A DNA stretch of 64,000 nucleotides, taken from assembly GCF_001678675.1 (NCBI RefSeq), contig NZ_LZRN01000001.1:62001-126000 (forward strand), read 5' to 3'. A model generated the notes under the pieces. The model was not told the origin of the DNA. It was given only the letters and a program-made list of their open reading frames with translations, and did not search any database. This DNA comes from Gelidibacter algens (GTDB lineage Bacteria; Bacteroidota; Bacteroidia; Flavobacteriales; Flavobacteriaceae). The position numbers and the translations under genes were made by a program. Positions 20,569 to 42,973 of the stretch are shown piece after piece; within the stretch, counting starts at the first letter, position 1; every line of letters begins with the position of its first letter.

Positions 20569-20612
20569 ATGACTAAAATCATGGCGTAGGTGTAGATACT
20601 TACGTAATTTTA
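20569..20612 (+). promoter_or_regulatory. FNR-like box 1 with -7 element, upstream of Usp 20632
   Basis: ATGAC-TAAA-ATCAT at 20569-20582, then 22 bases, then TAATTTTA at 20605-20612. One mismatch to the ATGAT-N4-ATCAT palindrome. The box centre would lie at about -41.5 from a start about 5 bases after the -7 element. Confidence 0.8.
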
Positions 20613-20631
20613 TAAGATCAAATTCAAACCC

Positions 20632-21465
20632 ATGAAAAACATTCTGCTATTAACTGATTTTTCCGACACATCGAAAAATGCAATTCGTTATGCTTTGGAG
20701 TTGTTTAAAGATGAGCACTGTACTTTTTATGTGCTTTATGTTCAAGATGCCACCACATACACCACCGATGATGTTGTAGCAACCGCATCATCAAGCTTAT
20801 ATGATTCGCTCATTAATAAAAACCGGATCAAATTGGCTACTTATGTGTCTGATCTCAAAGCGGAATATGATGTTGAACATTTCAATTTTAAAACCATTGT
20901 CGACTTTGATTCGTTTATAGCCGCCATTCATCAGAGCATAAAAACCAAAGACATAGATGTGATAGTTATGGGGACCAACGGCGCCACTGGCGCTAAAGAA
21001 ACTGTTTTTGGCAGTAATACACTCAAGGTCATCCGTAGGGTCAATTGTACAACCCTGATCATTCCTGAAAATTTTGCTTATGTGGCCCCTAAAGAAATGT
21101 TATTGGCTTTGGATCCGTCAGATCAATTGAATGGAAAAGCAATAGCCGATTTTTTTAAATTCCTTAAGCGCCATAGCACGAGATTGCATGTTTTGAGAGT
21201 CAGTTCTGAGAGTGACACTCATGAGCTTCCGGATACTGATAAGAAAAATTTAAACCATTACATGACTGGTGAAAACTACCTGTATGATCTTGTGGAGAAT
21301 ATACCCATGGAACATGCAGTGGATACCTATATACAAACCCATCAGATTGATATGTTAAGCCTCATTGTACAGAAGGAGTCATTTTTGGAGCGTTTATTTG
21401 TGGGCTCGCCTACCACCAAAATCAATCAAAATACGCATTTGCCATTGCTTATTTTTCATTCCTAA
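20632..21465 (+). CDS. Universal stress protein, tandem UspA domains
   Basis: 277 residues, two Usp domains. First domain: KNILLLTDFSDTSKNAIRYALELF and the nucleotide-binding signature VMGTNGATGAKETVFGSNTLKVI. Second domain (about 150-277) is degenerate, ends in LPLLIFHS and has no G-2X-G-9X-G motif. Same architecture as the paralogues on the minus strand at 24263-29696. Preceded by FNR-like box 1. Cytoplasmic stress or dormancy protein; exact role unknown. Confidence 0.92.
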   Translation: MKNILLLTDFSDTSKNAIRYALELFKDEHCTFYVLYVQDATTYTTDDVVATASSSLYDSLINKNRIKLATYVSDLKAEYDVEHFNFKTIVDFDSFIAAIHQSIKTKDIDVIVMGTNGATGAKETVFGSNTLKVIRRVNCTTLIIPENFAYVAPKEMLLALDPSDQLNGKAIADFFKFLKRHSTRLHVLRVSSESDTHELPDTDKKNLNHYMTGENYLYDLVENIPMEHAVDTYIQTHQIDMLSLIVQKESFLERLFVGSPTTKINQNTHLPLLIFHS

Positions 21466-21514
21466 GAGGCCTCTACAAAAGAGCCGTGTTGAACTAACCT
21501 TGCTTACCCAAATC

Positions 21515-21928
21515 TTAAATGATAAGTCCTTCAAGATACTCCATGATCTCAGATTTTAATTTGGCGGTTTGCGTTAAGAAATTGACAACATCCAACTCTA
21601 TTTCATTATTTTTTCTGACGAAATAATCATCGCAGGACAGCTCGTCACATTCAATTTTGAGTTGAACCTCATTGTGTTGCCTTTCAATTACAATAGCCAA
21701 TTTGGAGGTTTTTTTTAAATTGATGTCGATCTGCTTCTTAAAAAGCGTGACCTTTTCAAACAGGTTGAGCGTTTTTGGATCGAAACTATTAGAATCCAGC
21801 AACTGTTTAAAGAATTCCAACTCTTTAGTGAGTAGCGTCAAACGTGATTTGTAAAAGGACAAATTAAACCTAAGCTCTTCTATACTCTTGTCTCTATAAG
21901 GGTTTTCGTCATTATTAAATTGTTCCAT
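21515..21928 (-). CDS. Hypothetical coiled-coil protein
   Basis: 137 residues, no family recognised. Rich in Lys/Glu/Leu with heptad-like stretches (LRFNLSFYKSRLTLLTKELEFFKQLLDS; LFEKVTLFKKQIDINLKKTSKLAIVIERQ), so probably alpha-helical. No signal peptide or membrane segment. Start 12 bases downstream of the beta-CASP nuclease gene on the same strand, so it is the last gene of that operon. Confidence 0.75.
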   Translation of the reverse strand: MEQFNNDENPYRDKSIEELRFNLSFYKSRLTLLTKELEFFKQLLDSNSFDPKTLNLFEKVTLFKKQIDINLKKTSKLAIVIERQHNEVQLKIECDELSCDDYFVRKNNEIELDVVNFLTQTAKLKSEIMEYLEGLII

Positions 21929-21940
21929 GGGTGCAGTTTT

Positions 21941-23314
21941 TTAAATGATTATGTGTTCTACATCAGATAGTTTGGGAATGCTCACATTCCAATGGTAGGT
22001 ATCTTTTATTTTTACTCTAAAGGCATCTAAAGCAGACGGCTCACCATGGATGAGGTACACTTTTTCAGGAATATTGATAATGTCACCCATCCAATGTAGC
22101 AATTCATTCTGGTCCGCATGGGCCGATAAACTTTCAAGATGTTTGATGGTTGCTTTTACTGGGTGGTATTTTCCCGAAAACTTGATCTCATGGGCACCGT
22201 CAAACAGCAGTCTTCCACGGGTGCCTTCAGCTTGATAACCTACCAATAAAACAGTCGTGGACGCATCATCGATAAGTTGCTGCAAATAGGTGAGGACTCT
22301 TCCGCCAGTAACCATACCGCTTCCTGCAATGATTATTTTAGAGCGTTTGTCATCAATCGTTTCCCAGGTTTCCTTGTATGATTCAATAATAGTTACATGG
22401 TTGCACATCGCATTATAATCAGAATCAGACAGTTTATGCCATTTTGGAAAGCGTTTAAAAACATTCAACACATTGTTTCCCATTGGGCTATCTACAAAAA
22501 TAGGAATATTGGGAATCTTATTTTTCTGATATAATTTCCAAAGGATAAACATCAAGGTTTGAAGGCGTTCTACCGCAAAACTAGGGATGATGAGGTTGCC
22601 TTTTTTGTGAAGGGTCTCAACAATAATATCAGCAAGCAGTTGCTCTACATCTTCTGTTGGATGGAGTTTATCGCCATAGGTACTTTCTACAAAAAGAAAA
22701 TCTGCCTGATCGGGACGTTTAGGATCATCCAATAAGTAATCATTGGTTCTCCCAATATCTCCAGAAAACACAAACCGTTTGGAATTGATGTCCAATTCTA
22801 TAAACGTCGCCCCAAGAATGTGTCCGTTGTATTGAAATCGGTATAAAATGTGCTCTGATAAACTAATCCATTGGTCTTCGGCTTCTGCCTGAAACAAAAG
22901 GATTGTTTTTTCAGCCTCCGCAACGGTATAAAAAGGAAGCGCAGGGCTATGTTTAGTGTATTTTTCGTCGTTGGCCTTTTCTGCTTCTTCTTCATGTATT
23001 TTAGCACTGTCCCTTAAAATGATTTCGGCAATGGCCAAGGTAGGTGCGGTGCCAATTATTTTACCACTAAAACCTTGTTTTACCAAGCGTGGTAAATAGC
23101 CAACATGGTCTAGATGTCCATGGGTAAGTAAAACTAAATCTATTGTGGCAACATCTATAGGGAGGTCCGTCCAATTGAGTTCTCGCAGTTCCTTTAAGCC
23201 TTGGAACATACCACAATCAATCAGAATATTTTTTTCAGAGGTTTGAATATAAAATTTTGAGCCTGTAACCACACCGGCGGCTCCCAGAAAATTAATTTTT
23301 ACATGATGGTTCAT
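21941..23314 (-). CDS. MBL-fold beta-CASP ribonuclease
   Basis: 457 residues. Metallo-beta-lactamase core: LGAAGVVTGSKFYIQT, LIDCGMFQG, LLTHGHLDHVGYLPRLV (HxHxDH zinc site), GDIGRTNDYL (metal Asp), VESTYGDKLH. Beta-CASP insert and C-terminal motifs: IIPSFAVERLQTLMFIL, GSGMVTGGRVLTYL, SLSAHADQNELLHWM and LIHGEPSALDAF. Matches the CPSF73-like RNase/exonuclease family. Sits 4 bases after an ATP-cone/Mrr-like gene and before a coiled-coil gene; in a stress island, so RNA turnover under energy limitation is plausible. Confidence 0.93.
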   Translation of the reverse strand: MNHHVKINFLGAAGVVTGSKFYIQTSEKNILIDCGMFQGLKELRELNWTDLPIDVATIDLVLLTHGHLDHVGYLPRLVKQGFSGKIIGTAPTLAIAEIILRDSAKIHEEEAEKANDEKYTKHSPALPFYTVAEAEKTILLFQAEAEDQWISLSEHILYRFQYNGHILGATFIELDINSKRFVFSGDIGRTNDYLLDDPKRPDQADFLFVESTYGDKLHPTEDVEQLLADIIVETLHKKGNLIIPSFAVERLQTLMFILWKLYQKNKIPNIPIFVDSPMGNNVLNVFKRFPKWHKLSDSDYNAMCNHVTIIESYKETWETIDDKRSKIIIAGSGMVTGGRVLTYLQQLIDDASTTVLLVGYQAEGTRGRLLFDGAHEIKFSGKYHPVKATIKHLESLSAHADQNELLHWMGDIINIPEKVYLIHGEPSALDAFRVKIKDTYHWNVSIPKLSDVEHIII

Positions 23315-23318
23315 AATT

Positions 23319-24164
23319 TTAGATTTTACAGAGCATTTTTATCTCGTTTTTGATCTTTGATTTGCGAGATTCTGAAATCCCGAGATGGTCCAAGAAAAAA
23401 ACGTCGTCTATCAAGTCTCGACACAGCACAACATCTCTACTTAGCAAAAATTGTTTTTCCCGTTTGGTCAATAGTGTTGAAACGGTGATGGGATATAATC
23501 CCAATCGGTCTATCCTGTTTCGCAATCCGTCATGTTTTGGATAGTCCCAACTCAAAAGGTATAAACCTATACAATTTCCGTATTGAAGGGCATCTTCCGT
23601 AAAACGTGTGTTGGTCACCACCCAACCTACATCCAATACTGTTTCATGTGGTTTTGAGTTCCAATGTATTTTGACATCCTTAAACCGAGAGGCTATATAT
23701 AAAGGAACTTTAACATTGCAATTTCTACCTTCTTCACTATGGAATTTACATTCTATAAGGGTGGTGTTGCCATTTTTTGTGGCGATAACATCTATTTCAT
23801 GGCTCACACATTGGCCTTGCACTATCTCACTCACATGAGTGTCATAACCTGAATATCTTAAAATGGCGCTTATAAAACGTTCAAACGGATATCCTGTAGG
23901 ACCCAACTCATAAATGGCTTTTTTAAGCTTGTATTTTGAGGCTAAGTAGCTTCCTTTTTTTTTAAGTAAAGCAAAGGCCCTGTTATAGATTTCCTTGGTT
24001 GAAATGCCGTGGTATAATTCTTTCTGCACTTGTTCAATAATATCACTTACTGTATGCTTGTCGGCACCTGATTTCCCTAAAGATGCACGCAATTTGTCCA
24101 ATGAAAATTTTACTTTTTCACCTGATGACTTAATGATGTCAATGTTAGTATCCATAGTTTTCAT
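23319..24164 (-). CDS. ATP-cone domain fused to an Mrr-like PD-(D/E)XK nuclease domain
   Basis: 281 residues. N-terminal ATP-cone (about 6-95): IIKSSGEKVKFSLDKLRASLGKSGAD, GISTKEIYNRAFALLKK, YKLKKAIYELGPTGYPFE. Then a restriction-endonuclease-like domain (about 95-190): FERFISAILRYSGYDTHV, CVSHEIDVIATKNGNTTLIECKFH, giving the D...ExK core. The C-terminal 90 residues (TKREKQFLLSRDVVLC, LGISESRKSKIKNEI) are uncharacterised, possibly helical DNA-binding. An ATP-cone usually senses ATP/dATP, suggesting nucleotide-gated nuclease activity (inference). Operon with the beta-CASP RNase. Confidence 0.88.
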   Translation of the reverse strand: MKTMDTNIDIIKSSGEKVKFSLDKLRASLGKSGADKHTVSDIIEQVQKELYHGISTKEIYNRAFALLKKKGSYLASKYKLKKAIYELGPTGYPFERFISAILRYSGYDTHVSEIVQGQCVSHEIDVIATKNGNTTLIECKFHSEEGRNCNVKVPLYIASRFKDVKIHWNSKPHETVLDVGWVVTNTRFTEDALQYGNCIGLYLLSWDYPKHDGLRNRIDRLGLYPITVSTLLTKREKQFLLSRDVVLCRDLIDDVFFLDHLGISESRKSKIKNEIKMLCKI

Positions 24165-24262: not shown

Positions 24263-25102
24263 CCTATTTACTTGGAATAATTAAAAATGGAATGGTAGGG
24301 TGGTAACCTATGTTTTTAATAATAGGCTCTTTGGTGATATTCTCAATAATGCTATGCTTATAGTTGAACATGGCCAAAATATCAATATCTAAATACTTCA
24401 ATAAAGTACATTAATCACGTCAGATTTTTTGTGATAGGCAGGCATCCAATGGAAGCTATGTTCAGTGTCCTTTAAGTACTCTTTGAGGATGCTTATATTT
24501 TTATTTTGCTTTTCACTCAAATCCTCTTCCACATTAATGTGCAATACGTTGATATGAGCATCATACAACGACGCAAAATCTTGTAAGGTTTTTAGCGTCT
24601 TGGCATCATATGGACGATTAAAATCTGTGGGAAAAGCTATTTTTTTTGGAGTCTTAAAGTCTTGCTTATTTAACACAACCAATACCGGGCAACTTTTTAT
24701 ATGTTTAATAGTCTTCACGGTATAACTGCCAAAAAAGAACGCGTCTACACCAATTGCACCTTTGGTACCCATGACGACCAAGTCAATATCATGTTGTTTG
24801 ATGCTTGCTTCAATGGCATGTGGCAATTCATCACTACTTGAAATCATTCCGAAAGTGTGATTTGTGTTCGTGTTTTCTTCATCCATTTTCGCTTTGAGTT
24901 TGGTCAAGTCTCTTTTTGAGTTGTCTCTAAAAGTACCAATAAAATTACTGCTCATTAACGAAGGAGACCTTGAACTTGAGAAAGCATATGAATTTAGAAA
25001 ATAGAAGGTACACGTTTCATTGGCATACAGTTTTAAAGCATAAGATAGTGCGCTCTTTGAATTTTCAGAAAAATCTGTTGGAATTAAAATTGACTTCTTC
25101 AT
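24263..25102 (-). pseudogene. Universal stress protein, frameshifted near the C-terminus
   Basis: The open frame runs from ATG at 25102 to a stop at 24398 (234 residues, ending KSDVINVLY). In another frame the sequence continues at once as LKYLDIDILAMFNYKHSI, IIENITKEPIIKNIGY, HPTIPFLIIPSK to a stop at 24263-24265. This is nearly identical to the C-terminus of the intact paralogue at 26177-27013. Small insertions around 24375-24405, about two bases net, explain the break. The first Usp domain with MGTKGAIGVDAFFFGSYTVK is intact, so a truncated product could still be made. Confidence 0.88.
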
Positions 25103-25254
25103 GTGTTGTAAATTTGATTGTTATTAGATGACGGCTCAACCACGACCGGAACTGTTTTATGAAATGTGATGTGGTTGCCTGTCGATTTAAAAAATATAGT
25201 CTTAAAAAATGATTTTTTGATATTGATGATGACTAGCTTATCAACTGCGATATT
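25099..25254 (-). pseudogene. C-terminal fragment of a deleted universal stress protein gene
   Basis: The 52-codon frame reading NIAVDKLVIINIKKSFFK, then TVPVVVEP, ends in a TGA overlapping the ATG of the next gene. It begins directly after the stop of Usp 25255-26109. It aligns with the C-terminus of Usp 27068-27880 (NAVDMLAMINNKKSYF), also at DNA level (shared TTGACTGTCGATTTAAAAAA-like string). It is therefore the remnant of a Usp gene whose first about 230 codons are gone. Confidence 0.82.
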
Positions 25255-26109
25255 TTAACCTCTTAAGTCGTGCATGACCAATATAGGTACTTTGGAATCA
25301 TACGCAATTCCTTTGACCAAGGGTTGATTAATGATACTTGCAAAAAAAGTATGTTTTTTATTAATAAATGCGACCATATCACTTTCTCTACTTTCAACAA
25401 AGCAGTTTATAGCAGCCGGAACAGACATATTTCTCAGAAAATGGAATGAATGATTGACATCAACAAAATAATCTTCCAATTGTGTTTTCGTGTCCATCTG
25501 TTTGTCACTCAATTTGTCTTCTACCATAATATGCAGTACTTTTATTGAAGCGCCGCATCTTTTGGTGATATCCATAAGATAATTCAATTCTCTCCTTTTA
25601 AAGTGTGTTTTGTAACTTGTTGGAAAGACAATCTCTTTTGGAAGGTTTAGTTTTGCCAATTGCGGAACCACAATAACAGGACAATTCCTAATGTCTTCCA
25701 TTACCCTCAACGCTGTGCTGCCATAAATTTTATTTTTCGAGTTTGTTTCACCCTGAGTTCCCATAACGATAAGCTCGATATCTTTCTCTTCCACTACTCT
25801 TTCAATACCATCTAAAGGATAACTGGACGTAGAGATGGTTTGAAAACTATGCTTTGAATTTCCATTTTCTCCAAAAGCCAAATCGTTCAAGAGTTTGTCC
25901 AACCCTCTCATAGATGCTATTTTTGAGGTTTCATAAAGTTCACTTCCTGGTTCCATGTTTATGATGCTATCTAGATCATTTGCATCAATATAGAATACGT
26001 TGAGAAGATAAAAAATACAAGGTTCATCTTTATAAAGTTCCAGTGCATAATTAACGGCTTGTAAGGCGTTAACTGAAAAGTCTGTTGGTAATAATATCCG
26101 TCGTTTCAT
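25255..26109 (-). CDS. Universal stress protein, tandem UspA domains
   Basis: 284 residues from the ATG at 26109 (MKRRILLPTDFSVNALQAVNYALELY). First-domain signature VMGTQGETNSKNKIYGSTALRVM; second domain degenerate, ending VPILVMHDLRG. Paralogue of five other recognisable Usp genes in the island. Lies between the two copies of a duplicated segment (24263-25254 and 26177-27200). No FNR-like box directly upstream, so probably transcribed from the promoter at 28774-28817. Confidence 0.92.
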   Translation of the reverse strand: MKRRILLPTDFSVNALQAVNYALELYKDEPCIFYLLNVFYIDANDLDSIINMEPGSELYETSKIASMRGLDKLLNDLAFGENGNSKHSFQTISTSSYPLDGIERVVEEKDIELIVMGTQGETNSKNKIYGSTALRVMEDIRNCPVIVVPQLAKLNLPKEIVFPTSYKTHFKRRELNYLMDITKRCGASIKVLHIMVEDKLSDKQMDTKTQLEDYFVDVNHSFHFLRNMSVPAAINCFVESRESDMVAFINKKHTFFASIINQPLVKGIAYDSKVPILVMHDLRG

Positions 26110-26176
26110 GAGTGCTTTTTTTAATTTTATGAGTAAACCTATAGGTGTCAATGGTAATGACCCTAGTCTATATTAA

Positions 26177-27013
26177 CTATTCACTTGGGATAATCAAAAA
26201 TGGAATGGTAGGTTGGTAACCTATATTTTTAATAATAGGCTCTTTGGTTATATTTTCAATAATGCTATGCTTATAGTTGAACATGGCCAGAATATCTATA
26301 TTTAAATCTGCAATAAAATCATTAATTACTGCCGATTTTTTGTTGTACGCGGGCATCCAATGGAAGCTGTGTTTATTTTCCCTTAAGTGCTCTTTGAGGA
26401 TGACCATATTTTTGTTTTGTTCATTGCTCAAATTCTCTTCTACATTAATATGCAGTATGTTGATGTGGGCATCATACAATGCCGCAAAATTCTGCAAAGG
26501 TTGCAGCATCTTAGTGTCGTAAGGGCGGTTAAAATCTGTTGGAAAGGCAATTTGCTTCGGGATTCTAAATTCAGTGGTGCCAGGTACAGCTAGTACAGGA
26601 CAACCTTTTATGTTTTGAACAGTCTTTACTGTGTTACTGCCAAAAAAGAACTTATTCACGCCTGTTGCGCCTTTGGTGCCCATGACCACCATGTCAATAG
26701 TATATTTTTTAATGCTATTTGCAATGGCATACAATAATTCATCACCGCTTGCGATGATTTCAAAAGTATGGCCCGCATTGGTGTTTTCTTTTTCGGCCTT
26801 AGCTTTGAGTTCTTTCAAGTCTCTTACTGAACTGTCTTTTAGGATCTGAATAAAATGCGTTGTGATAAATGTTCTGGATTGTGAGCTGGAAAAGTAGAAT
26901 GAATTCAAGAAATAGAATGTACATTCTTCTTTGGTGTATAATTTTAAGGCATAAGCTAATGCGCGCCATGCATTATCAGAAAAATCAGTAGGGATTAAAA
27001 TGGACCTTTTCAT
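26177..27013 (-). CDS. Universal stress protein, tandem UspA domains (intact copy of the frameshifted paralogue)
   Basis: 278 residues: MKRSILIPTDFSDNAWRALAYALKLYTKEE, MGTKGATGVNKFFFGSNTVKTV, second domain IAFPTDFNRPYDTKMLQPLQNFAALYDAHINILHI, ending IPFLIIPSE. Very similar to the pseudogene at 24263-25102, including the shared FPTDFNRPYD and FNYKHSIIENITKEPIIKNI strings, so the two arose by recent duplication. Its ATG overlaps the TGA of the restored frame of the upstream Usp gene. Confidence 0.93.
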   Translation of the reverse strand: MKRSILIPTDFSDNAWRALAYALKLYTKEECTFYFLNSFYFSSSQSRTFITTHFIQILKDSSVRDLKELKAKAEKENTNAGHTFEIIASGDELLYAIANSIKKYTIDMVVMGTKGATGVNKFFFGSNTVKTVQNIKGCPVLAVPGTTEFRIPKQIAFPTDFNRPYDTKMLQPLQNFAALYDAHINILHINVEENLSNEQNKNMVILKEHLRENKHSFHWMPAYNKKSAVINDFIADLNIDILAMFNYKHSIIENITKEPIIKNIGYQPTIPFLIIPSE

Positions 27014-27067
27014 GTGGTTTTAGTTTTTTGAGTGTTAAGTTGTGAAGGCATGACCAAAAAAGGAGCG

Positions 27068-27880
27068 TTAAATGGAATCCGATTTGGTTGACTGTCGATT
27101 TAAAAAAGTAATATTTTCTAAAAAATAAGATTTTTTGTTATTGATCATCGCCAACATATCTACTGCATTTTTTTCTTGATAGGCAAGTATGCCACGCATA
27201 ACATTGTCGCCTTTTAGGTCGTGAAACTCATGATTACCTTGTGGCAAAATCTTTTGTAAAGACGCTTTGTTATTGAGTTGTACTTCAGATAAGTCAGTGG
27301 TGAGCACATGGAGAATGTCAATTCTTGAATGGTGCGTTTTGGCAAGTGCCAACAACGGTTCCAATTGGCTTGTGTGGTACGCAAGCCCATAATCTGAAGG
27401 AAATAAAATAGACGAAGGTGTTATATAGATAAAACCATCAGGAATTGCCAATACTGGACATTTTACATTTTTAAAAACTTGAACCGTATTCGATCCAAAA
27501 AGCACTTCTTCTGCGCCTGTAGCTCCTTTAGTTCCCATGACAATCATATGTATGGTATGCGACTCCATAAAATCATGTATCCCAGAAATCAAAGTATCAA
27601 AGCGGGCCATGGTTTGAAACTCATGGTTGGAATTGTTTCCAAAGGTATCAGAAATGCGTTGTTTTAAAGTTTTTAAATGCTCAAGTGAGGTGTTTCTTAT
27701 GGTGTCTTCCAAACCAAATTGTGCAGGATACCCCAACACATACTCCACATGATAGATTACTGGTGTGTACGTATTAAGCAGATAGAAAGTGCAGGCGTCA
27801 TCTTTAAAAAGATGGATGGCATAGCTGATGGCGTTCCATGAATTCTCAGAAAAATCAGTTGGTAGGAGAATATGTTTCAT
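27068..27880 (-). CDS. Universal stress protein with frameshifted C-terminus
   Basis: 270 residues from the ATG at 27880 (MKHILLPTDFSENSWNAISYAIHLF); MGTKGATGAEEVLFGSNTVQVF. The frame ends ...RQSTKSDSI at 27068, lacking the usual final strand. Removing one A from the AAA near 27081-27083 restores NRIPFNAPFLVMPSQLN and runs to a TGA at 27010-27012 that overlaps the next ATG. Either a recent single-base insertion or a sequencing error at that site. The main nucleotide-binding domain is intact. Confidence 0.88.
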   Translation of the reverse strand: MKHILLPTDFSENSWNAISYAIHLFKDDACTFYLLNTYTPVIYHVEYVLGYPAQFGLEDTIRNTSLEHLKTLKQRISDTFGNNSNHEFQTMARFDTLISGIHDFMESHTIHMIVMGTKGATGAEEVLFGSNTVQVFKNVKCPVLAIPDGFIYITPSSILFPSDYGLAYHTSQLEPLLALAKTHHSRIDILHVLTTDLSEVQLNNKASLQKILPQGNHEFHDLKGDNVMRGILAYQEKNAVDMLAMINNKKSYFLENITFLNRQSTKSDSI

Positions 27881-27899
27881 AAATTTTAATTTGAATAAT

Positions 27900-28751
27900 T
27901 TATGCGTCACGTTTTAGGTTTTGCATCGCCAAAAACGGAACCTTAAGGTCTAAACTTAACTGATCAACACGAGAAGGATAAAGAAAAGATTCTAAAAATG
28001 ATTCTCTGGTATTGACCATCACAAGCATATCTATGGGATGGTCTTTAACATACTGCTCAATGGCCTCCACCACATTTTTGCTGTCAAGAGTTTTAAAATT
28101 AATCTCGTTTTTACACAATGCTTCTTTTATAAAAAGCTGGTTGTCTTCCTGTCTGATTGAAAGTTTAGTGCTTTTTGAAATATAGACCACATCAATGACA
28201 GATCTATACGGCGCCACCATATCACAGAACAATTTAAGCTCTCTTCTTTTAAAGGGGATAAGATAATTGGTAGGGAATAGAATCTTTTTTGGTTGTGTGT
28301 AGGTCTGTTTCTCAGGAATGGCCAAAACAGGACACTGTACATATTTTAAAACCTGCAATGTCTGGCTGCCAAAGGTGATGTTTTTGTCATTGCTCTTACC
28401 TCGGGTGCCCATGATAATGAGGTCTATATTCTTTTCATTTACAATGCTATCAGCCTCATCAATAAGAATGTTGTTGGCAGAAATGGAGTGATAGGTATGA
28501 CGTGGATTTGGAGAAATCTCATGGATGTCCTTCAAAATTTGCTCCAAATGTGCAGCAGATTTGGCAGCCATCATTTCAGTGACGTCATCAAGGTTTTCGC
28601 GGGTTAGCGCTGCCGTTTCTTTATGAATGGCATCTTCATAGGCATGCATGATATAAAACTCGCACTTTTCATATTTAAAAAGTTCTAGTGCATATTTTAC
28701 AGCATTCATAGAATTGTCTGAAAAATCAGTTGGAATCAATATATTTCTCAT
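27900..28751 (-). CDS. Universal stress protein, tandem UspA domains
   Basis: 283 residues: MRNILIPTDFSDNSMNAVKYALELF, signature IMGTRGKSNDKNITFGSQTLQVL, degenerate second domain with ILFPTNYLIPFKRRELKLF, ending VPFLAMQNLKRDA. First gene of the minus-strand Usp series below FNR-like box 2. Gap of 19 bases to the next Usp start, so co-transcription through 24263 is likely. Confidence 0.93.
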   Translation of the reverse strand: MRNILIPTDFSDNSMNAVKYALELFKYEKCEFYIMHAYEDAIHKETAALTRENLDDVTEMMAAKSAAHLEQILKDIHEISPNPRHTYHSISANNILIDEADSIVNEKNIDLIIMGTRGKSNDKNITFGSQTLQVLKYVQCPVLAIPEKQTYTQPKKILFPTNYLIPFKRRELKLFCDMVAPYRSVIDVVYISKSTKLSIRQEDNQLFIKEALCKNEINFKTLDSKNVVEAIEQYVKDHPIDMLVMVNTRESFLESFLYPSRVDQLSLDLKVPFLAMQNLKRDA

Positions 28752-28773
28752 AGTATTCTGTTTGTTTATACGT

Positions 28774-28817
28774 TAAAGTTAAGAAGCAAACGTGACAAAA
28801 ACTATGATAAATATCAG
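28774..28817 (-). promoter_or_regulatory. FNR-like box 2 with -7 element, upstream of Usp 27900-28751
   Basis: Plus strand ATGAT-AAAT-ATCAG at 28804-28817. On the minus strand, 22 bases further, TAACTTTA (28774-28781). Same spacing as the other six boxes; one mismatch in the palindrome. Confidence 0.82.
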
Positions 28818-28856
28818 ACGCTAAGGATAAAAGGAAAGGAAAATACTAAAATTTAG

Positions 28857-29696
28857 TTAATGCAGCACCAAAAATGGAACATCAGTATGGTAGCTTATTT
28901 TTTCAATTTTTGAGTGAAATAGGATATGCTGAAAATAATTCAGATTTTTTGCGACCATAACAATCATATCAATGTTCCTACTTTCAACAAAACACTGCAC
29001 GGCGTCCTCAACTTTTTTATTGGTCAAAAAATGGAAACTATGATCGAGATTACTGAAATAATCTTCTAACAGCTCTTTATTTTTATTTTGATCATTGTTT
29101 AAGACAGCATCTTTTTTACTGATATTTAAGATACGAATGGCAGCACCATGCTTTTCTGTTATATTGACTACTGGTTGAAGAATGTTAATGTTGTACAGCA
29201 TTGAAAAATCTGTTGGAAACGCCACCTCTTTGAGAGTTTTGAATTTTGCATTTTCAGGCACCACAAGGGTGTTACAATGAACTTTCGTAATAACATCCCC
29301 AGTGTTGCTGCCCACTATTATTTTTTTGAGCCCCGTAGCCCCTTTGGTGCCCATGACAATCATATTGATTTTTTTTTCACTGACTTGTTGTCTTATGGAC
29401 TCTACCAAGAAATTATGATCAGTTACGGTGTAAAATTTGTGTTTTTTGCTAGTAGATAGTTTTGTAGAAATATGGTTTAAGGTGTCTCTTAACCTTGCTT
29501 TTGCAGTTTGGGTGTAAACATCTTCAATTTGTGCAGTGGAGACAAGGTAAGGGGAGTCATTGATTCCGATAGCACTCGATTTTATGACATGCAGTAAATA
29601 AAAATTGCAGGCTGTTTCTTCAAATAACCTCAAGGCGTACTTGATAGCATTCAATGAATTCTCTGAAAAATCTGTGGGCAATAGTACATTTTTCAT
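28857..29696 (-). CDS. Universal stress protein, tandem UspA domains
   Basis: 279 residues: MKNVLLPTDFSENSLNAIKYALRLFEE, VMGTKGATGLKKIIVGSNTGDVI, second domain with VAFPTDFSMLYNINIL, ending TDVPFLVLH. Separate unit from the next Usp gene, with its own FNR-like box 49 bases upstream of the start codon. Cytoplasmic; role in oxygen- or energy-limited survival inferred from context. Confidence 0.93.
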   Translation of the reverse strand: MKNVLLPTDFSENSLNAIKYALRLFEETACNFYLLHVIKSSAIGINDSPYLVSTAQIEDVYTQTAKARLRDTLNHISTKLSTSKKHKFYTVTDHNFLVESIRQQVSEKKINMIVMGTKGATGLKKIIVGSNTGDVITKVHCNTLVVPENAKFKTLKEVAFPTDFSMLYNINILQPVVNITEKHGAAIRILNISKKDAVLNNDQNKNKELLEDYFSNLDHSFHFLTNKKVEDAVQCFVESRNIDMIVMVAKNLNYFQHILFHSKIEKISYHTDVPFLVLH

Positions 29697-29714: not shown

Positions 29715-29758
29715 CAAATGTAGAGGTCATTGCCTTTTCAAAAAATGATAAAAATCAT
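29715..29758 (-). promoter_or_regulatory. FNR-like box 3 with -7 element, upstream of Usp 28857-29696
   Basis: Perfect ATGAT-AAAA-ATCAT at 29745-29758, 22 bases, then TACATTTG on the minus strand (29715-29722). It lies between this Usp gene and the end of the REC-CRP regulator gene. Confidence 0.87.
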
Positions 29759-29777: not shown

Positions 29778-30827
29778 TTAGCTAATATTTTTGAGTTTTT
29801 CTAAATCTAGAATTCTGATGTTTCTGCCTTCTATTTCCAGAATACCCTCCTTTTTAAAAGAAGACATCGTTCTGATTAAAGTTTCAGTAGCAATGCCTGC
29901 CACACTTGCCAAATCATTTCTGGAGATTCTGATAGGATCTTCTGGTTTTTTATTTAGTTTTTCTGCAAATTTCAGAATGGTCGTGGCTGTTTTTTTATGG
30001 ACAGAACTGTACGCCATTTGCAGCAGTTGGTCTTTGGTGCCTTTTAAATCTTCAGTCAATAAATGGATCAATTCTAAGGTCACATGATGGTTGGTGTTGA
30101 GAATTCCTTTAAGGGTATGACTGGAAACGCCTACCAATTCCGTTTTTTGAATGGCCGTCGCTGTTTCTTGATACGTGGTATTTTCAGTAAAAGACGTGTA
30201 GCCAAACAAATCATCTTCTCTGTGTAACGCTGTGGTCAATTCCTTGCCTTGCTCATCCAACTTATGGCATTTCACAAGGCCTTTAATGATCAGGTAAATA
30301 GTATTTGAGTGTTGGCCTTCTTCATAAATATACTGTCCTTCATCAACAACACTGTTTTCCCCATTATCATCAAAAAAGTTTTTGAGATCATTCAGGGTCC
30401 GCAAATCGTGTTTATTTTCTTCAAGGGTTTCTGCCCTTTCCTGAATGTCCTTTAAGATAGAAACTTTAGCCAACCTACTTTCTATGGCACTGATCAGTTC
30501 ATCTTCACTAAAAGGTTTGGTAATGTAATCATCAGCGCCCAAGTTCATCCCTCTTCTAACATCTTGCCGTTCTGTTTTTGCCGATAAATAAATAAAGGGG
30601 ATGTGTTTAGTACTCTCATTTTTTGATAACGCATCCAATACGGCATAACCGTCCATTTCTGGCATCATAATATCACAAACAATTAGTTCTGGAAGATGTT
30701 CCATTGCAAGATGCATCCCAATTTTGCCATTGGGTGCGGTCATCACTTGAAAATTTGAAAGTTCCAATAACTCTGCGGTGTTCTCTCTTAAAACGGTATC
30801 ATCTTCTATTAAAAGTATTCTTTTCAT
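29778..30827 (-). CDS. Response regulator fused to a CRP/FNR-type DNA-binding module
   Basis: 349 residues. REC domain 1-120: LLIEDDT acidic pair, phospho-acceptor Asp52 in VCDIMMPEMDG, YLSAKTE and DDYITKPFSEDE. Cyclic-nucleotide-binding-like beta-roll about 145-265 (VVDEGQYIYEEGQHSNTIYLIIKG, DDLFGYTSF). HTH about 300-335: RISRNDLASVAGIATETLIRTMSSFKKEGILEI. The recognition helix keeps the E and R of FNR-type ETxxR, with Ile where FNR has Ser. No FNR cysteine cluster. Its ATG overlaps the kinase stop by 4 bases. Probable activator at the ATGAT-N4-ATCAT boxes. Confidence 0.92.
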   Translation of the reverse strand: MKRILLIEDDTVLRENTAELLELSNFQVMTAPNGKIGMHLAMEHLPELIVCDIMMPEMDGYAVLDALSKNESTKHIPFIYLSAKTERQDVRRGMNLGADDYITKPFSEDELISAIESRLAKVSILKDIQERAETLEENKHDLRTLNDLKNFFDDNGENSVVDEGQYIYEEGQHSNTIYLIIKGLVKCHKLDEQGKELTTALHREDDLFGYTSFTENTTYQETATAIQKTELVGVSSHTLKGILNTNHHVTLELIHLLTEDLKGTKDQLLQMAYSSVHKKTATTILKFAEKLNKKPEDPIRISRNDLASVAGIATETLIRTMSSFKKEGILEIEGRNIRILDLEKLKNIS

Positions 30828-32071
30828 ATGATGCTTTGATTTGGTAATGTGATTGTAAAAACGCTACCATTATGCTCTTTACTTGCAAATTCAATGGAGC
30901 CTCCTAAATTTTCGAGATGGCTTTTAACAATGTTGAGGCCAATGCCGGTGCCTTGGATGTTTAGTACATTTTCAGCTCTAAAATACCGATTGAAGATGTT
31001 TTTTTGTTCAACTTCAGGAATGCCTATCCCACTATCCTTGATTTTAAACACTGTATTTTTATCATTTTGTACAATTTTGATATCAATATTGGTGTGCTCT
31101 GGAGAATATTTAATGGCATTATGGACAATGTTGGATAAAGATAGTTCTAAAATCTTTTCATCTTGATGTAGTGACATATCGTCAATGTTTTCAGGATAGT
31201 TAATTTTCTGTCCATCTTTTAAGAGCATGTTGGCATTGTAAATGACCTCATTGAGTATTTTACTCAATTTAAAGGTTTTAAATGTGTAGTTGACTTTTCC
31301 TGTTTCCAAGCGCTCTACAGATAGGAAATCATTGAGGATGTTGTTGAGATAATGCACTTTGTTGGTAATGGTATTCAAATGCTTATCCCTTTTTTCTTGG
31401 TCTTCAGCTAACTTGTATTTTCCCAACAAAACGGTGGAAGTCAAAATGCCGCTCAAGGGCGTTTTAAATTCATGAGATACCAACGATAGGAATTTGGTCT
31501 TCAATTCATTAAGTTCTTTTTCTTTTTTAAGTGCGATTTGGGTTTTTTCTTCAGCCTTGATGCGGCGTTTGTTTTCTTTGTCCAACTCAAAATTCACAAG
31601 TTTGAGTTCCTCTACAGTATGGTTCAATGTTTTGGTGCGTTCCTCAACCTTTTTCTCTAGTCTGTTGTTGAGGTCTAATATTTCCTGTTCTTGTTTTTTT
31701 CGATCACTAATATCAATTATAAGTGCCATGACATAGGTTCTATCATAAATGACAAAAGGGTTCAGTCCTGCTTCTACCGGAAAAACCGAGCCATCTTTTC
31801 TTTTTCCATAAATATCACGCCCTTTTCCCATTTGCCGACGCTCATGTTTTTCCATGAAGCCATCAAAATGCGCGCCGTGCTGAGCATGATATTGTTGAGG
31901 AATCAAGGTGTTGAGCGATTGGCCTACAAGATCTTCTCGTGTGTAACCAAAAATAGTCTCTGCAGAGGCATTTACCTCCTTAATGGTTTGTGTTTCATCA
32001 ACAATGATAACGCCTTCAGAAACGGCACCCAATAGCATGTTGAATACCTTTTTTTGGTCTTGTTTGAACAT
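30824..32071 (-). CDS. Soluble PAS-domain histidine kinase, FixL-like
   Basis: 415 residues from the ATG at 32071; no membrane segments. PAS domain about 8-130: IIVDETQTIKEVNASAETIFGYTREDLVGQSL, YHAQHGAHFDGF, MGKGRDIYGKRKDGSVFPVEAG. Aligned with rhizobial FixL, the His of QHGAHF falls on the heme-ligand position and the Arg of GKGRD on the distal Arg. Coiled-coil linker about 135-185; HisKA with SLVSHEFKTPLSGIL; HATPase with NIVHNAIKYSPEH, IKDSGIGIPE and GTGIGLNIV. Translationally coupled to the REC-CRP regulator. Heme binding is inferred. Confidence 0.9.
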   Translation of the reverse strand: MFKQDQKKVFNMLLGAVSEGVIIVDETQTIKEVNASAETIFGYTREDLVGQSLNTLIPQQYHAQHGAHFDGFMEKHERRQMGKGRDIYGKRKDGSVFPVEAGLNPFVIYDRTYVMALIIDISDRKKQEQEILDLNNRLEKKVEERTKTLNHTVEELKLVNFELDKENKRRIKAEEKTQIALKKEKELNELKTKFLSLVSHEFKTPLSGILTSTVLLGKYKLAEDQEKRDKHLNTITNKVHYLNNILNDFLSVERLETGKVNYTFKTFKLSKILNEVIYNANMLLKDGQKINYPENIDDMSLHQDEKILELSLSNIVHNAIKYSPEHTNIDIKIVQNDKNTVFKIKDSGIGIPEVEQKNIFNRYFRAENVLNIQGTGIGLNIVKSHLENLGGSIEFASKEHNGSVFTITLPNQSII

Positions 32072-32122
32072 AGATTTTAGACAAAAAATATAAGAAGTAA
32101 AAATACAAAAAATTGACCCCAA

Positions 32123-32501
32123 TAAAGGGTAATCCCGTCAGATATCCTGAATTAATAACCAATGGTCGAGTTTTGATAAAAAAATTAGGTGACTTAGTTC
32201 ATAGAATGATCTGTCTTGGAGCCTATAAAAACTCTCAATCCCTTTGATGAAGGGATAAGGACACGTTTGTAAGGGGTTATAGAGGACAAAAATAATCCTT
32301 GATGTCATTTTTAGAACCTAATGCTAAGTATTTCAAGGGATCCAATTATTGCCTCCTTATGATGGATATCATTTTATAACATCATAATTTGAGATACCTT
32401 TAAATACAAAACCTAAATGATAGAACCAATAAACGGACGTCTCTCTTATACTTTAGGCGATTAAATTTATCAATCAATTCAAACAAAACAAGATTTTATA
32501 A
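32123..32501. other. Divergent regulatory region between the kinase and M50 operons
   Basis: No gene seen. It holds a small hairpin ATCCCTT/AAGGGAT at 32238-32256, FNR-like box 4 at 32359-32372 and its -7 element at 32395-32402. I found no convincing promoter or box for the kinase. Confidence 0.6.
32359..32402 (+). promoter_or_regulatory. FNR-like box 4 with -7 element, upstream of the M50 operon
   Basis: Perfect ATGAT-GGAT-ATCAT at 32359-32372, 22 bases, then TACCTTTA at 32395-32402. The flank ATCATTTTATAAC is shared with box 7. Drives the five-gene unit 32502-37579. Confidence 0.87.
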
Positions 32502-37603: not shown

Positions 37604-37647
37604 ATGATATTTATCATTTCAATTTCCATTTATTGCAGTTATTTTTA
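37604..37647 (+). promoter_or_regulatory. FNR-like box 5 with -7 element, upstream of DUF2892 gene
   Basis: Perfect ATGAT-ATTT-ATCAT at 37604-37617, 22 bases, then TATTTTTA at 37640-37647. The DUF2892 start codon lies 17 bases after the -7 element. Confidence 0.87.
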
Positions 37648-37663
37648 TTAAAAATCACACCTT

Positions 37664-37942: not shown

Positions 37943-38410
37943 ATGTTTATAAATTTAGAGGATAAAAATATCAAGTTCATTTTAGAGAATAATTACATTG
38001 GGCATCTGGGTTATATCTATCATAACAAACCCTATGTTGTGCCAATTACCTATTATTTTGACAAAGAGGATAACAGTATTATTTGCTACTCCGGTGCAGG
38101 TCATAAAATGAATGCCATGAGAAAAAATAGCGCTGTATCGCTACAAGTAGAAGAAGTTGAATCGGTTAGCAACTGGAAGTCAGTATTGGTACACGGCACT
38201 TTTGAAGAATATTCTGGAAGCGATGCCAAAGCCTATCTTCATAAGTTTTCATTGGGAGTAAAAAATGTGATTCTTGAAAAAAAACACATTAAACTTGACT
38301 TTATCAGTGAGTTTTCTAGCAAGATCTATAATGATAACATTCCAGATGTGTTTGTTATCAAGATCGAGGAATTTAGTGGGAAAATGAGACAAAATAAATT
38401 TGAAAAATAG
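37943..38410 (+). CDS. Pyridoxamine 5'-phosphate oxidase-fold (Nim-like) flavoprotein
   Basis: 155 residues. LEDKNIKFILENNYIGHLGYIYHNKPYVVPITYYFDKEDNSIICYSGAGHKMNAMRKN is the FMN-binding split-barrel pattern seen in NimA-type nitroreductase-like proteins, followed by VSLQVEEVESVSNWKSVLVHGTFEE. Cytoplasmic. Such proteins are recurrent members of hypoxia regulons, matching the FNR-like box upstream of the neighbouring DUF2892 gene. 60 bases after that gene, same unit. Confidence 0.9.
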   Translation: MFINLEDKNIKFILENNYIGHLGYIYHNKPYVVPITYYFDKEDNSIICYSGAGHKMNAMRKNSAVSLQVEEVESVSNWKSVLVHGTFEEYSGSDAKAYLHKFSLGVKNVILEKKHIKLDFISEFSSKIYNDNIPDVFVIKIEEFSGKMRQNKFEK

Positions 38411-38415
38411 AGCAC

Positions 38416-39294
38416 ATGAAATATATATACATAGGCATACTGATGCTGTTATTTTTAAGTTGTAAGGATGATGGACGCCAAGAACAAACTCCTGAAACTG
38501 AAGAAACAGAAAATGTTGTAACACCTACCGAAGATACGCTTAAACCGGGGGACAGAGATGTCGATGCGTTAAACAAGTCAATTTCCATTGAAGTCAAACA
38601 AAAGGAATTGATTGAAAAAAAGGACCAGCGGTCTGAGTTTCAAAAATTGATCCTCGATAAAAAATATGTTATTGACCAGAAGGATTACACGATCAATTTT
38701 AAGTATCCCTTGCTTGACGAATCCCTTCATGCTTCAAACCGAAATTTCAACGAATTTATCACTAACTATTATGTTAATATCAAAAAAACACTTTCTGATA
38801 TACAAGCCAGCAAAATGCTGTGTGACAGTATTGAAACCATAAAATTTAGAGAAGAACGGTTTATAGATTACAAAATCTACATTGTTAATGATCAACTATT
38901 AAGTGTCCTCTTTTATAAAGAAAGCTTTTATTCAGGTGCCATGCATCCCAGCTATTCTTTTGACTGCTTTAATTTTGATTTAATCAACGGTGTGTTCATG
39001 ACGTATGAAGACTTTTTTAATCAAGGCTCTGAAGATGAATTATTGAATATTATAAATGAAAAAATACTGAAAAAAATTCAAAATTCAGACATGTATTATG
39101 ATTGTTGGGCATTATCTCCTTCTGATTTTTTTGAAAGCAAAAACAACTTCGTTCTTAATGATACCTATATAGAGTTTTATTTTGATGACTGTGTTATGTG
39201 TCCATCTTATACAGGGTCTTATTCCATTCAGCTTCCGCTCGTAGATTTGCTGTCGGTTTTGAAAAAGTCCAATTCAAATCCTTTGGTTTTTTAA
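38416..39294 (+). CDS. DUF3298/RsiV-like lipoprotein
   Basis: 292 residues with lipobox LLFLSCKDDGR and an acidic low-complexity linker (about 20-60). The C-terminal half resembles DUF3298/DUF4163 proteins: KYPLLDESLHASNRNFNEFI, KESFYSGAMHPSYSFDCFNFDLINGVFMTYEDFF, INEKILKKI and YIEFYFDDCVMCPSYTGSYSIQLPL. Periplasmic-facing lipoprotein of unknown role. Starts 5 bases after the PNPOx-like gene, so in the box-5 unit. Confidence 0.82.
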   Translation: MKYIYIGILMLLFLSCKDDGRQEQTPETEETENVVTPTEDTLKPGDRDVDALNKSISIEVKQKELIEKKDQRSEFQKLILDKKYVIDQKDYTINFKYPLLDESLHASNRNFNEFITNYYVNIKKTLSDIQASKMLCDSIETIKFREERFIDYKIYIVNDQLLSVLFYKESFYSGAMHPSYSFDCFNFDLINGVFMTYEDFFNQGSEDELLNIINEKILKKIQNSDMYYDCWALSPSDFFESKNNFVLNDTYIEFYFDDCVMCPSYTGSYSIQLPLVDLLSVLKKSNSNPLVF

Positions 39295-39358: not shown

Positions 39359-39402
39359 ATGATTAATATCATTTTAGTATTCCAAAGCGAGTGTTACTTT
39401 TA
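39359..39402 (+). promoter_or_regulatory. FNR-like box 6 with -7 element, upstream of the outer-membrane barrel gene
   Basis: Perfect ATGAT-TAAT-ATCAT at 39359-39372, 22 bases, then TACTTTTA at 39395-39402; start codon 25 bases further. Confidence 0.87.
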
Positions 39403-39427: not shown

Positions 39428-40000
39428 ATGAAAAAACTAATTAAAAATGGCGTTATCGTGTTGATTATGATACTCTCGAGCACGTCTTTTTCGCAAAACA
39501 AATGGTCTGTAGAATTTAGACCAGACATCAATTTCCCGACCGAAGATTTTGGCGATTCCAAGATAGAAACCGGTTACGGTTTTGAATTGACCGGTGCTTA
39601 CCGTTTTATGGAACATCTATCGGCCTACGCGGGATGGAGCTATAATACGTTTGGTATCAAAGACTCTGATTTGGACTTTGATGAAACCGGCTATACCTTC
39701 GGATTACAGTTTATACATCCTTTAGGTACTTCGGAAACGCTTTCTTATCTCTTGCGAGCAGGTGCTACTTATAACCATATCGAACTTGAAAACACAGATG
39801 GCGATATTACTTCCGACTCGGGTCACGGGTTGGGTTACCAAATTGAGGCAGGCTTGAATTATGACTTGGGCACCAATTGGGATTTACGTCCAACCATTAG
39901 ATACAGAGCCTTATCGAGAGACCTTGATATTGATAACACCACCCTCAATGTTGACCTCAATTATTTGTCCTTCGGACTTGGGATTGCAAAAACATTTTAA
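39428..40000 (+). CDS. Outer-membrane beta-barrel protein (porin/OmpW-like)
   Basis: 190 residues with a signal peptide (MKKLIKNGVIVLIMILSSTSFSQN). Alternating amphipathic strands with aromatic girdles (WSVEFRPDINFPT, YGFELTGAYRFMEHLSAYAGWSY, TFGLQFIHPLG, YLLRAGATYNHIEL, GYQIEAGLNYDLG) and C-terminal aromatic LSFGLGIAKTF indicate a small 8-stranded barrel. OmpW-type barrels are often oxygen-regulated, in line with FNR-like box 6. Precise family uncertain. Confidence 0.85.
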   Translation: MKKLIKNGVIVLIMILSSTSFSQNKWSVEFRPDINFPTEDFGDSKIETGYGFELTGAYRFMEHLSAYAGWSYNTFGIKDSDLDFDETGYTFGLQFIHPLGTSETLSYLLRAGATYNHIELENTDGDITSDSGHGLGYQIEAGLNYDLGTNWDLRPTIRYRALSRDLDIDNTTLNVDLNYLSFGLGIAKTF

Positions 40001-41297: not shown

Positions 41298-41320
41298 TAT
41301 CCATTAAAAGATTAGCATAT

Positions 41321-41326: not shown

Positions 41327-41333
41327 CGTCATC

Positions 41334-42446
41334 ATGAAAACTATCACTAAAATTTTCCGCATGGTCATAAGCGTTATCTTGGGATTCATAAGTATTCTTC
41401 TGGTTGTTTTGATCCTATACAGTCCAGGGAAATCAGAACCATTTTTAGATTCTGATGGAACTAAATTAGCTGGTAGCATTTCAGAGAAAACCTTTGTAAC
41501 CATTGGAGGTGTTCGTCAGGGAATGTTTATAAAGAGTAAAAACAAAAATAATCCAGTCTTGCTTTTCCTTCATGGTGGTATTCCCATGTACTATCTGACA
41601 AAAAAATATCCAACTGGACTCGAAGACTATTTCACCATTGTATGGTGGGAACAGCTAGGTTCAGGACTTTCATATAACAGCAATATTCCACCAGAAACAA
41701 TGACTTCTGAACAGATGATAAGTGATGCTGTAGAGCTAACAAATTACCTACGCCAGCGTTTTGGTCAGGAAAAAATATATCTGATGGCTCATTCAGGCGG
41801 CACTTTTTTCGGGATACAGACTGCCGCTCAACACCCTGAATTGTTCCATGCCTATATTGGTGTCAGTCAAATATCTAACCAGCTCAACTCTGAAAGATTG
41901 GCGTATGACTATATGTTGAAACGGTATAAAGAGACCGATAACAGAAAGATGGTCCGAAAACTTGAGAACGCATCTATTAGTGATGGCATTTCTGATTCTT
42001 ATCTTCAAATCCGCGACAAGGGCATGCACGAACTGGGTGTTGGCACAACTCGGGATATGAAATCGGTATTCACCGGAATTTTCATACCGTCCTTAACATG
42101 TAAAGAATATACTGTAAAGGAAAAGTTTAATATGTGGCGAGGTAAATCGCAATCTGGTGTTAGTTCAATGTGGGATGAAATACTCACAACAGATTTGAAG
42201 GATAAAGTGACAAACCTTGATATTCCTGTCTATTTTTTTTCTGGGGTTTACGATTACACCACATCCTACACCTTATCCAAAGCATATTTTGAAAGGCTAA
42301 ATGCACCTATAAAGGGATTTTATTCGTTTGAAAAATCAGCCCACAGTCCGATTTTTGAAGAACCATTGCGTTTAAGAGAAATTATTGAAAACGATGTATT
42401 GAATGGAAAAACAGGTTTATCTGATACTGTTTTAGAAGACTTCTGA
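41334..42446 (+). CDS. Alpha/beta hydrolase, prolyl-iminopeptidase-like
   Basis: 370 residues. N-terminal membrane anchor (IFRMVISVILGFISILLVVLILY), then an alpha/beta hydrolase fold: VLLFLHGGIPMYYL (oxyanion HGG), YFTIVWWEQLGSGLSY, nucleophile elbow YLMAHSGGTFFGIQ (Ser in HSGG), DIPVYFFSGVYDYTTSY (acid) and FEKSAHSPIFEEP (catalytic His). Peptide or ester substrate unknown. The strong Shine-Dalgarno upstream may hint at acquisition from another phylum. Confidence 0.88.
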   Translation: MKTITKIFRMVISVILGFISILLVVLILYSPGKSEPFLDSDGTKLAGSISEKTFVTIGGVRQGMFIKSKNKNNPVLLFLHGGIPMYYLTKKYPTGLEDYFTIVWWEQLGSGLSYNSNIPPETMTSEQMISDAVELTNYLRQRFGQEKIYLMAHSGGTFFGIQTAAQHPELFHAYIGVSQISNQLNSERLAYDYMLKRYKETDNRKMVRKLENASISDGISDSYLQIRDKGMHELGVGTTRDMKSVFTGIFIPSLTCKEYTVKEKFNMWRGKSQSGVSSMWDEILTTDLKDKVTNLDIPVYFFSGVYDYTTSYTLSKAYFERLNAPIKGFYSFEKSAHSPIFEEPLRLREIIENDVLNGKTGLSDTVLEDF

Positions 42447-42463
42447 AGAAATTATTAAGAGTC

Positions 42464-42802
42464 ATGAAACATCCGAATCTATTGATTATAAAAATCGTCC
42501 ACACCATTATTTGGCTGTTCTTTAATGTGGTTATTTTCTATCTTTTATATGCAGCAATAGTAAATAAAATTGATATTTGGGTTTGGATTTGCATCGGATT
42601 GGTGGTATTTGAAGTATTGGTTTTGTTGGCATTCAAGATGTTTTGTCCTTTGACGGTTATGGCAAGAAAATATTCGGATTCTACAAAAGACAATTTTGAT
42701 AATTTTTTGCCGAACTGGTTAGTGAAACATAATAAGCTGATTTACACCAGTATTTTTGGTGTCGCTATCGTAATTTTACTATTCCGATTGCTTTCAAATT
42801 AG
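42464..42802 (+). CDS. Small integral membrane protein of unknown function
   Basis: 112 residues with three membrane helices (IIKIVHTIIWLFFNVVIFYLLYAAIV; IWVWICIGLVVFEVLVLLAF; LIYTSIFGVAIVILLFRLL) and a conserved-looking FCPLTVMARKYSDSTKDNFDNFLPNW loop, reminiscent of DUF2784-type proteins but not certain. Starts 17 bases after the hydrolase gene. Confidence 0.75.
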   Translation: MKHPNLLIIKIVHTIIWLFFNVVIFYLLYAAIVNKIDIWVWICIGLVVFEVLVLLAFKMFCPLTVMARKYSDSTKDNFDNFLPNWLVKHNKLIYTSIFGVAIVILLFRLLSN

Positions 42803-42929
42803 AGTTCAATTTCTTCTTTTGCTGCTATTTTTCCTTTTATTTCTACGTTATAAAATAGCCTCTGGCTAGGAAGTTCCGTTTCCAAGGTGTCCCTATTTTG
42901 GTTAAACGTAGCTGCCCTAAGTGAATATT

Positions 42930-42973
42930 ATGATTGGTATCATTTTATAACCCATAAATAATGTTTATTTATG
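42930..42973 (+). promoter_or_regulatory. FNR-like box 7 with -7 element, upstream of patatin gene
   Basis: Perfect ATGAT-TGGT-ATCAT at 42930-42943, 22 bases, then TATTTATG at 42966-42973 (one mismatch to TAnnTTTG). The flank ATCATTTTATAAC is identical to box 4. Confidence 0.83.

Follow-up and report, generated by a model that had tools for sequence, protein, structure and literature searches.

A CRP/FNR-like operator at a fixed distance from the -7 element, and its probable receiver-CRP regulator, in Gelidibacter algens

Seven sites in a 64,000-nucleotide (nt) stretch of the Gelidibacter algens genome (the window; contig NZ_LZRN01000001.1, G000:C1:62001-126000, in a 4.5-Mb draft of 140 contigs) share one arrangement, an ATGAT-N4-ATCAT-like box separated by exactly 22 nt from a -7 element of the type TAnnTTTR. 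Judging from sequence comparisons, we consider it likely that all seven serve as class II-type activator promoters within one oxygen-linked regulon controlled by REC-CRP, a regulator encoded among them (Table 1).

A window scan allowing at most one mismatch recovered all seven boxes of an earlier, preliminary description, five of them perfect and the other two with a single mismatch, and every one had its -7 element at exactly 22 nt, six in the full form and that of the box at 42930 with five of the six fixed letters. The boxes at 28804 and 29745 lie on the minus strand, on which the former reads CTGATATTTATCAT. Boxes at this tolerance numbered 13 in the window; the shuffled expectation was 6.33, and none of 100 shuffles reached 13. 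At 22 nt to either side of the other six, no more than three of the six fixed -7 letters matched. The combination of box and -7 element at 22 nt, found seven times, had a mean of 0.10 and a maximum of 2 in 300 dinucleotide shuffles. When boxes were paired with full -7 elements at spacings of 10-35 nt, six pairs fell at 22, one at 19, and one at 27.

The same spacing recurred in relatives. Across 80 genomes of the family, a scan for ATGAYnnnnRTCAT with TAnnTTTR at 21-23 nt returned 577 sites, versus 14 for the reversed pattern used as control; with the spacing opened to 8-37 nt in these genomes, 90 of the 150 matches listed fell at 22, followed by 34 (7 matches) and 23 (6). Several matches in the minor peak at 34 were the reverse side of a box with a 22-nt promoter on the opposite strand. 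A second set comprised REC-CRP loci, the best 80 of 578 relatives (stretches of 5-17 kb), which with the window made 81. These held 325 core boxes (TGAYnnnnRTCA) at 22 nt, with 0 to 11 at each other spacing from 5 to 45; all 81 stretches, window included, contained at least one site, and in 75 of the 80 loci spacing 22 outnumbered the 20 other spacings from 12 to 32 summed. Nearly all of the sites (320 of 325) lay outside open reading frames (ORFs), a downstream gene was present for 311, and the median distance from the end of the -7 element to the next ORF start was 23 nt. The -33 TTTG, already described as lacking in the window, was found 19-21 nt upstream of the -7 element at 3 of the 325 sites (raw count). 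If transcription starts 5-6 nt past the -7 element, the 22-nt gap places the box centre near -41, in agreement with the class II-like position first proposed, and by this predicted geometry the window sites are class II-type CRP/FNR operators. That the spacing rule recurs beside the same regulator in relatives points to what may be a shared stress programme.

Perfect boxes occurred 26 times in the G. algens genome, versus 4 for the reversed pattern. Of these, 15 had a locus, and the window's five were alone among them in having at least five of the six -7 letters at 22 nt; for the 11 perfect boxes outside those 15, the element at that distance was full in two and matched five of six letters in three. 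A box alone, without the promoter element, is weak evidence. The genome-wide search for box and -7 element that the preliminary description had suggested, at up to two mismatches, did yield an excess (56 sites versus 18 for the control), one small enough that the weak own-genome sites must include chance matches.

The outer base pair had been said to differ from that of the FNR site, and it does: across the 80 genomes, TTGAYnnnnRTCAA boxes of the Escherichia coli type gave only 50 sites versus 17 in the control, far weaker than the 577 versus 14 for ATGAYnnnnRTCAT. The true palindrome described for the window did not extend to REC-CRP loci, where the distal outer base was C in 54% and A in 38% of sites and the proximal one T in 96%, an asymmetric form, [C/A]TGAYnnnnRTCAT. 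Because distal C is common there, the “mismatch” of the box at 28804 is probably a regular form of the site. In the 80 genomes, CTGAY..RTCAT with a promoter element was found 332 times (control, 6) and its mirror image ATGAY..RTCAG 57 times (control, 4), which rules out a symmetric palindrome.

REC-CRP itself falls within the CRP/FNR superfamily, with PF00027 and PF13545 both above cut-off; its closest named relative in the search was from Gelidibacter sediminis (85% identity). Residue D52 of the receiver was invariant in 80 of 80 aligned proteins, as were E315, I318, and R319 of the helix-turn-helix, and the window protein has two cysteines, versus the four expected for an FNR iron-sulfur (Fe-S) cluster. 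Of 296 genomes sampled from the whole phylum, 43, spread over nine family labels, had REC-CRP at E<=1e-60; identity outside Flavobacteriaceae was 37-47%. Gene order around it was conserved: among the 79 REC-CRP ORFs of the 80 loci (the ORF caller used gave none in L215), a gene for a PAS sensor kinase was the upstream same-strand neighbour of 76, and a Usp gene lay downstream of 75. The interval between REC-CRP and Usp holds the best-conserved window site, that at 29745, with an exact counterpart in 61 of 75 loci and a one-mismatch counterpart in 10 of the other 14. In G061 and G071, among the loci listed, the kinase, REC-CRP, FNR, CcoI, and CcoNO were grouped together with boxes.

Pfam bore out the names first given to the window's targets, except that the supposed DUF2892 ORF (37633-37878) had no Pfam or NCBIfam match; the lipoprotein (38416-39294) matched DUF3298 slightly below cut-off. 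Targets in the REC-CRP loci were clustered, each cluster being named from a single member. Usp genes accounted for 166 sites in 77 loci, and a family of ~136 residues with no significant Pfam family for 45 of the 325 sites (L167 and 43 other REC-CRP loci), with a distal-C box in 37 of the 45. Further clusters were the S30AE hibernation factor (17 sites), a DUF3298-like lipoprotein (8), Hsp20 (8), a WG-repeat protein (7), a heavy-metal domain (6), thioredoxin (5), the kinase itself (4), and FixS, cbb3, HemN, M50, and PNPOx (2 each). The regulon, drawn initially around the seven window targets, includes these but reaches past the window: in the 12 annotated stretches of 20 from the same genome (L137-L144 were not among the 12), sites outside the window preceded hemN, nirK, a nos gene group (nosZ), ccoNO, a Usp group, and a CBS protein, and a weaker site preceded a CcoI-like ATPase. 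From this content we infer a putative hypoxia or quiescence programme. The hemN gene and several Usp genes of this genome appear shortened or split between neighbouring frames (L125 8051-9130 and 9244-10075; L127 8191-9386; window 24398-25102), reflecting either decay or errors in the draft sequence.

The signal is probably oxygen. In structure comparisons the kinase's PAS domain matched FixL best, followed by DosP; an alignment of 77 kinases showed the heme-ligating His of FixL retained in 72 and R220 in 58, and heme in this domain is plausible. A doubtful but not negligible alternative keeps REC-CRP as the regulator and has a heme-free PAS domain read redox state, nitric oxide, energy state, or another ligand. 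It would accommodate the loss of several FixL heme-pocket positions and the fact that about half of the kinases exceed 450 residues and may carry further domains, but it sits less easily with heme PAS domains as the best structural matches, with the retained His, and with a box common to cbb3, nir, nos, and hemN genes.

As for the regulator, REC-CRP remains the likely one, as originally suggested, but the box is not private to it. The genome also encodes an FNR homologue (G000:C15:67739-68425), which scored 76.7 bits against NCBIfam Fnr, below the 228-bit cut-off; its C8, C11, C57, and C110 were invariant in 23 of 23 sequences, in a spacing that we take to differ from that of E. coli FNR. The two regulators have the recognition helix E-x-x-I-R in common; that of E. 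coli FNR is E-x-x-S-R, and this replacement may explain the changed outer base. Classified by cut-offs of our own setting (REC-CRP, E<=1e-70; FNR, E<=1e-44), genomes averaged 14.5 sites with both regulators (n = 17), 6.6 with REC-CRP only (16), 6.2 with FNR only (32), and 1.8 with neither (15); omitting 13 of the 80 genomes for poor quality, the means were 14.5 (17), 6.9 (15), 5.8 (26), and 0.33 (9). The motif thus goes with either regulator, with more sites where both are present. Means for the C form were 8.2, 6.8, 2.3, and 0.5 in the same order, and the ratio of C to A forms was 1.04 in REC-CRP-only genomes (109 versus 105) and 0.38 in FNR-only genomes (75 versus 199). Whether the fifth letter was T or C showed no clear difference between the genome classes and was rejected as a mark of a single regulator.

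The 199 sites in the 32 FNR-only genomes rule out REC-CRP as the only user of the box and imply that FNR could act on the boxes of the window. We nevertheless regard it as improbable that the FNR homologue activates the window promoters, with REC-CRP acting elsewhere or merely modulating. Besides those sites and the shared recognition helix, such an assignment can draw on the A..T form of five of the seven window boxes, which is favoured at FNR loci (24 sites, partly the same promoters copied by descent). It is countered by the 16 genomes that have REC-CRP and no FNR match at the cut-off used, which kept 105 sites (control, 1), by the clustering of sites around REC-CRP at all 81 loci, and by the near equality of distal C and A in REC-CRP-only but not FNR-only genomes.

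The fnr gene itself presents a different geometry: only 8-9 nt separate a box from the -7 element of this gene in 10 of the 22 loci examined (L146-L151, L153-L155, and L162) and likewise in G. algens (G000:C15 about 67702-67731; L126 about 17703). A protein bound there should block RNA polymerase, so that negative autoregulation of fnr is probable. The G. algens fnr box also faces a CcoI-like gene on the opposite strand at 22 nt. A further CRP-like gene of ~215 residues (L130 5814-6458, on G000:C45) adjoins a box with a -7 element matching five of six letters; a truncated haemoglobin suspected beside this site had no Pfam match. Although the fnr arrangement lends it some credence, a repressor or dual role for the boxes at large, with bound protein blocking RNA polymerase, is very improbable given the absent -33 TTTG and the spacing of exactly 22 nt at the 325 sites, which is where a class II activator would sit. 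Chance or base composition, to which one might ascribe the many perfect boxes without a promoter element among the 26 in the genome, is ruled out for practical purposes by the shuffles (at most 2 versus 7), the reversed pattern (14 versus 577), and the single spacing peak.

Several observations weigh against an oxygen-linked regulon of REC-CRP. The comparison of genome classes, by presence of REC-CRP or FNR versus sites, ignores shared descent; within it, ATGAY sites per genome were as many in FNR-only (6.2) as in REC-CRP-only genomes (6.6), and G048, where neither regulator was found (82% complete, 6% contamination), had 20 sites and mostly accounts for the unfiltered “neither” mean of 1.8. 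Distal-C sites also occurred in FNR-only genomes (75 in 32 genomes), so that the distal base biases rather than separates the regulators. Concerning the signal, R206 of FixL was present in only 3 of 77 kinases and I215 was mostly Q or K; of the 80 REC-CRP loci, no more than 6 contained cbb3 genes and 3 contained FNR; and a metagenome study predicts that a Flavobacteriales CRP/FNR homologue, maybe another protein, senses carbon (PMC8510549).

Table 1. Operator sites, Usp genes, and regulatory genes of the window
Feature	Elements	Coordinates	Strand	Context
Site 1	operator ATGACTAAAATCAT, 22 nt, -7 element TAATTTTA	20569..20612	+	ahead of Usp gene 20632-21465 (+)
Site 2	operator CTGATATTTATCAT (distal C), 22 nt, -7 element TAACTTTA	28774..28817	-	ahead of Usp run 28751 to 24398 (-)
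Site 3	operator ATGATTTTTATCAT, 22 nt, -7 element TACATTTG	29715..29758	-	ahead of Usp gene 28857-29696 (-)
Site 4	operator ATGATGGATATCAT, 22 nt, -7 element TACCTTTA	32359..32402	+	ahead of M50-CBS peptidase 32502, HlyD, FtsX, ABC, MscS (to 37579)
Site 5	operator ATGATATTTATCAT, 22 nt, -7 element TATTTTTA	37604..37647	+	ahead of small ORF, PNPOx-like 37943-38410, lipoprotein 38416-39294
Site 6	operator ATGATTAATATCAT, 22 nt, -7 element TACTTTTA	39359..39402	+	ahead of outer-membrane barrel gene 39428-40000
Site 7	operator ATGATTGGTATCAT, 22 nt, weak -7 element TATTTATG (5/6)	42930..42973	+	ahead of patatin gene 42990-43778
Six Usp genes	24398, 25255, 26177, 27068, 27900, 28857	24398..29696	-	first and last by Pfam, rest by sequence likeness
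REC-CRP regulator	receiver, cNMP-binding-like domain, CRP helix-turn-helix	29778..30827	-	
PAS sensor histidine kinase	PAS nearest FixL among solved structures; His aligns with FixL heme ligand	30824..32122	-	

The Usp genes from 28751 to 24398 presumably form a single operon. Also within the Usp cluster are a beta-CASP metallo-hydrolase and an ATP-cone/Mrr-like protein (21941-24164), found in 24 and 25 of the 80 REC-CRP loci, respectively.

In the mechanism that we propose for REC-CRP, the operator [A/C]TGAYnnnnRTCAT, which lies exactly 22 nt ahead of the -7 element typical of Bacteroidota, would take the place of the -33 TTTG, and the regulator would combine a FixJ-like receiver with a FixK/FNR-like DNA-binding protein, with the kinase encoded just upstream as phosphoryl donor. 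Falling oxygen would strip O2 from the PAS heme and switch the kinase on; REC-CRP, once phosphorylated, would then occupy the box and bring in RNA polymerase, with Usp arrays and membrane and envelope genes as the predicted output, joined in relatives by the ribosome-hibernation factor, Hsp20, and thioredoxin. The FNR homologue, with its four invariant cysteines, would act through this core box as well, at respiratory genes, in a range that overlaps that of REC-CRP. More tentatively, and at somewhat less than even chance, Flavobacteriaceae, along with other Bacteroidota that carry a distant form, may run a DosR-like hypoxic quiescence by means of a kinase resembling FixL and a receiver-CRP fusion, with FixL-FixJ-FixK collapsed to two proteins; an Fe-S FNR would share the core of the operator, distal C versus A would bias it to REC-CRP, and the promoter-side half would be near-perfect through also serving as the -33 element.

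The exact promoter grammar of box, 22 nt, and -7 element can be scanned for in any genome, and with a regulator pair named, the role of the Usp arrays becomes testable. Flavobacteria make up a large group of polymer degraders in the sea. The putative system gives a natural example in which two regulators share an operator and a single base biases the choice between them, and it would bring class II-like activation to a phylum with other promoter elements.

We classify the putative system as a variant of CRP/FNR class II control. At class II promoters of E. coli, FNR and CRP bind a 5-4-5 palindrome near -41 that replaces the upstream promoter element, the FNR site being TTGAT..ATCAA. The flavobacterial sites are alike in having a 5-4-5 box, predicted to lie near -41, in place of an upstream element, and their regulator in its CRP-type helix-turn-helix; they differ in the box (ATGAY..RTCAT or CTGAY..RTCAT) and in the -7 element TAnnTTTR, and a receiver replaces Fe-S or cAMP control. 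The mycobacterial DosR dormancy regulon, with its heme sensor kinases, LuxR-type regulator, many Usp genes, Hsp20, and hibernation factor, is similar in target content only: its operator differs, and the regulator here, REC-CRP, is not of the LuxR/NarL type.

Closer to G. algens, a transcriptome study of Flavobacterium psychrophilum reports a -7 consensus TAnnTTTG and induction of cbb3 under oxygen limitation; CRP and FNR do not appear in its main text (PMC9723704). No operator for oxygen control in flavobacteria was found in searches of open-licence papers, and a literature search on FNR helix residues gave no paper. NmpRSTU of Myxococcus xanthus is reported to respond to hypoxia through a heme-dependent kinase and to target Usp, CBS, cbb3 oxidase, and HemN genes (PMC11841059). 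A link to hypoxia, probable in flavobacteria, and the Usp, CBS, cbb3, and HemN targets are common to both, the heme kinase in flavobacteria being putative; NmpRSTU, as described there, differs in its globin-type heme domain and NtrC-like regulators and has no operator in common with the present system. The rhizobial FixL-FixJ-FixK cascade differs in that the main gene-adjacent targets here are Usp, hibernation, and chaperone genes, and in that receiver and CRP domains lie in one polypeptide here, in place of a separate response regulator that activates a separate CRP-type gene, so that the middle transcription step of the cascade is missing. What the two appear to share are a FixL-like PAS kinase, microaerobic genes, and a second FNR-type regulator on similar sites; the very similar sites reported for FixK and FnrN in rhizobia (PMC4999443) provide a precedent for an operator shared by two regulators.

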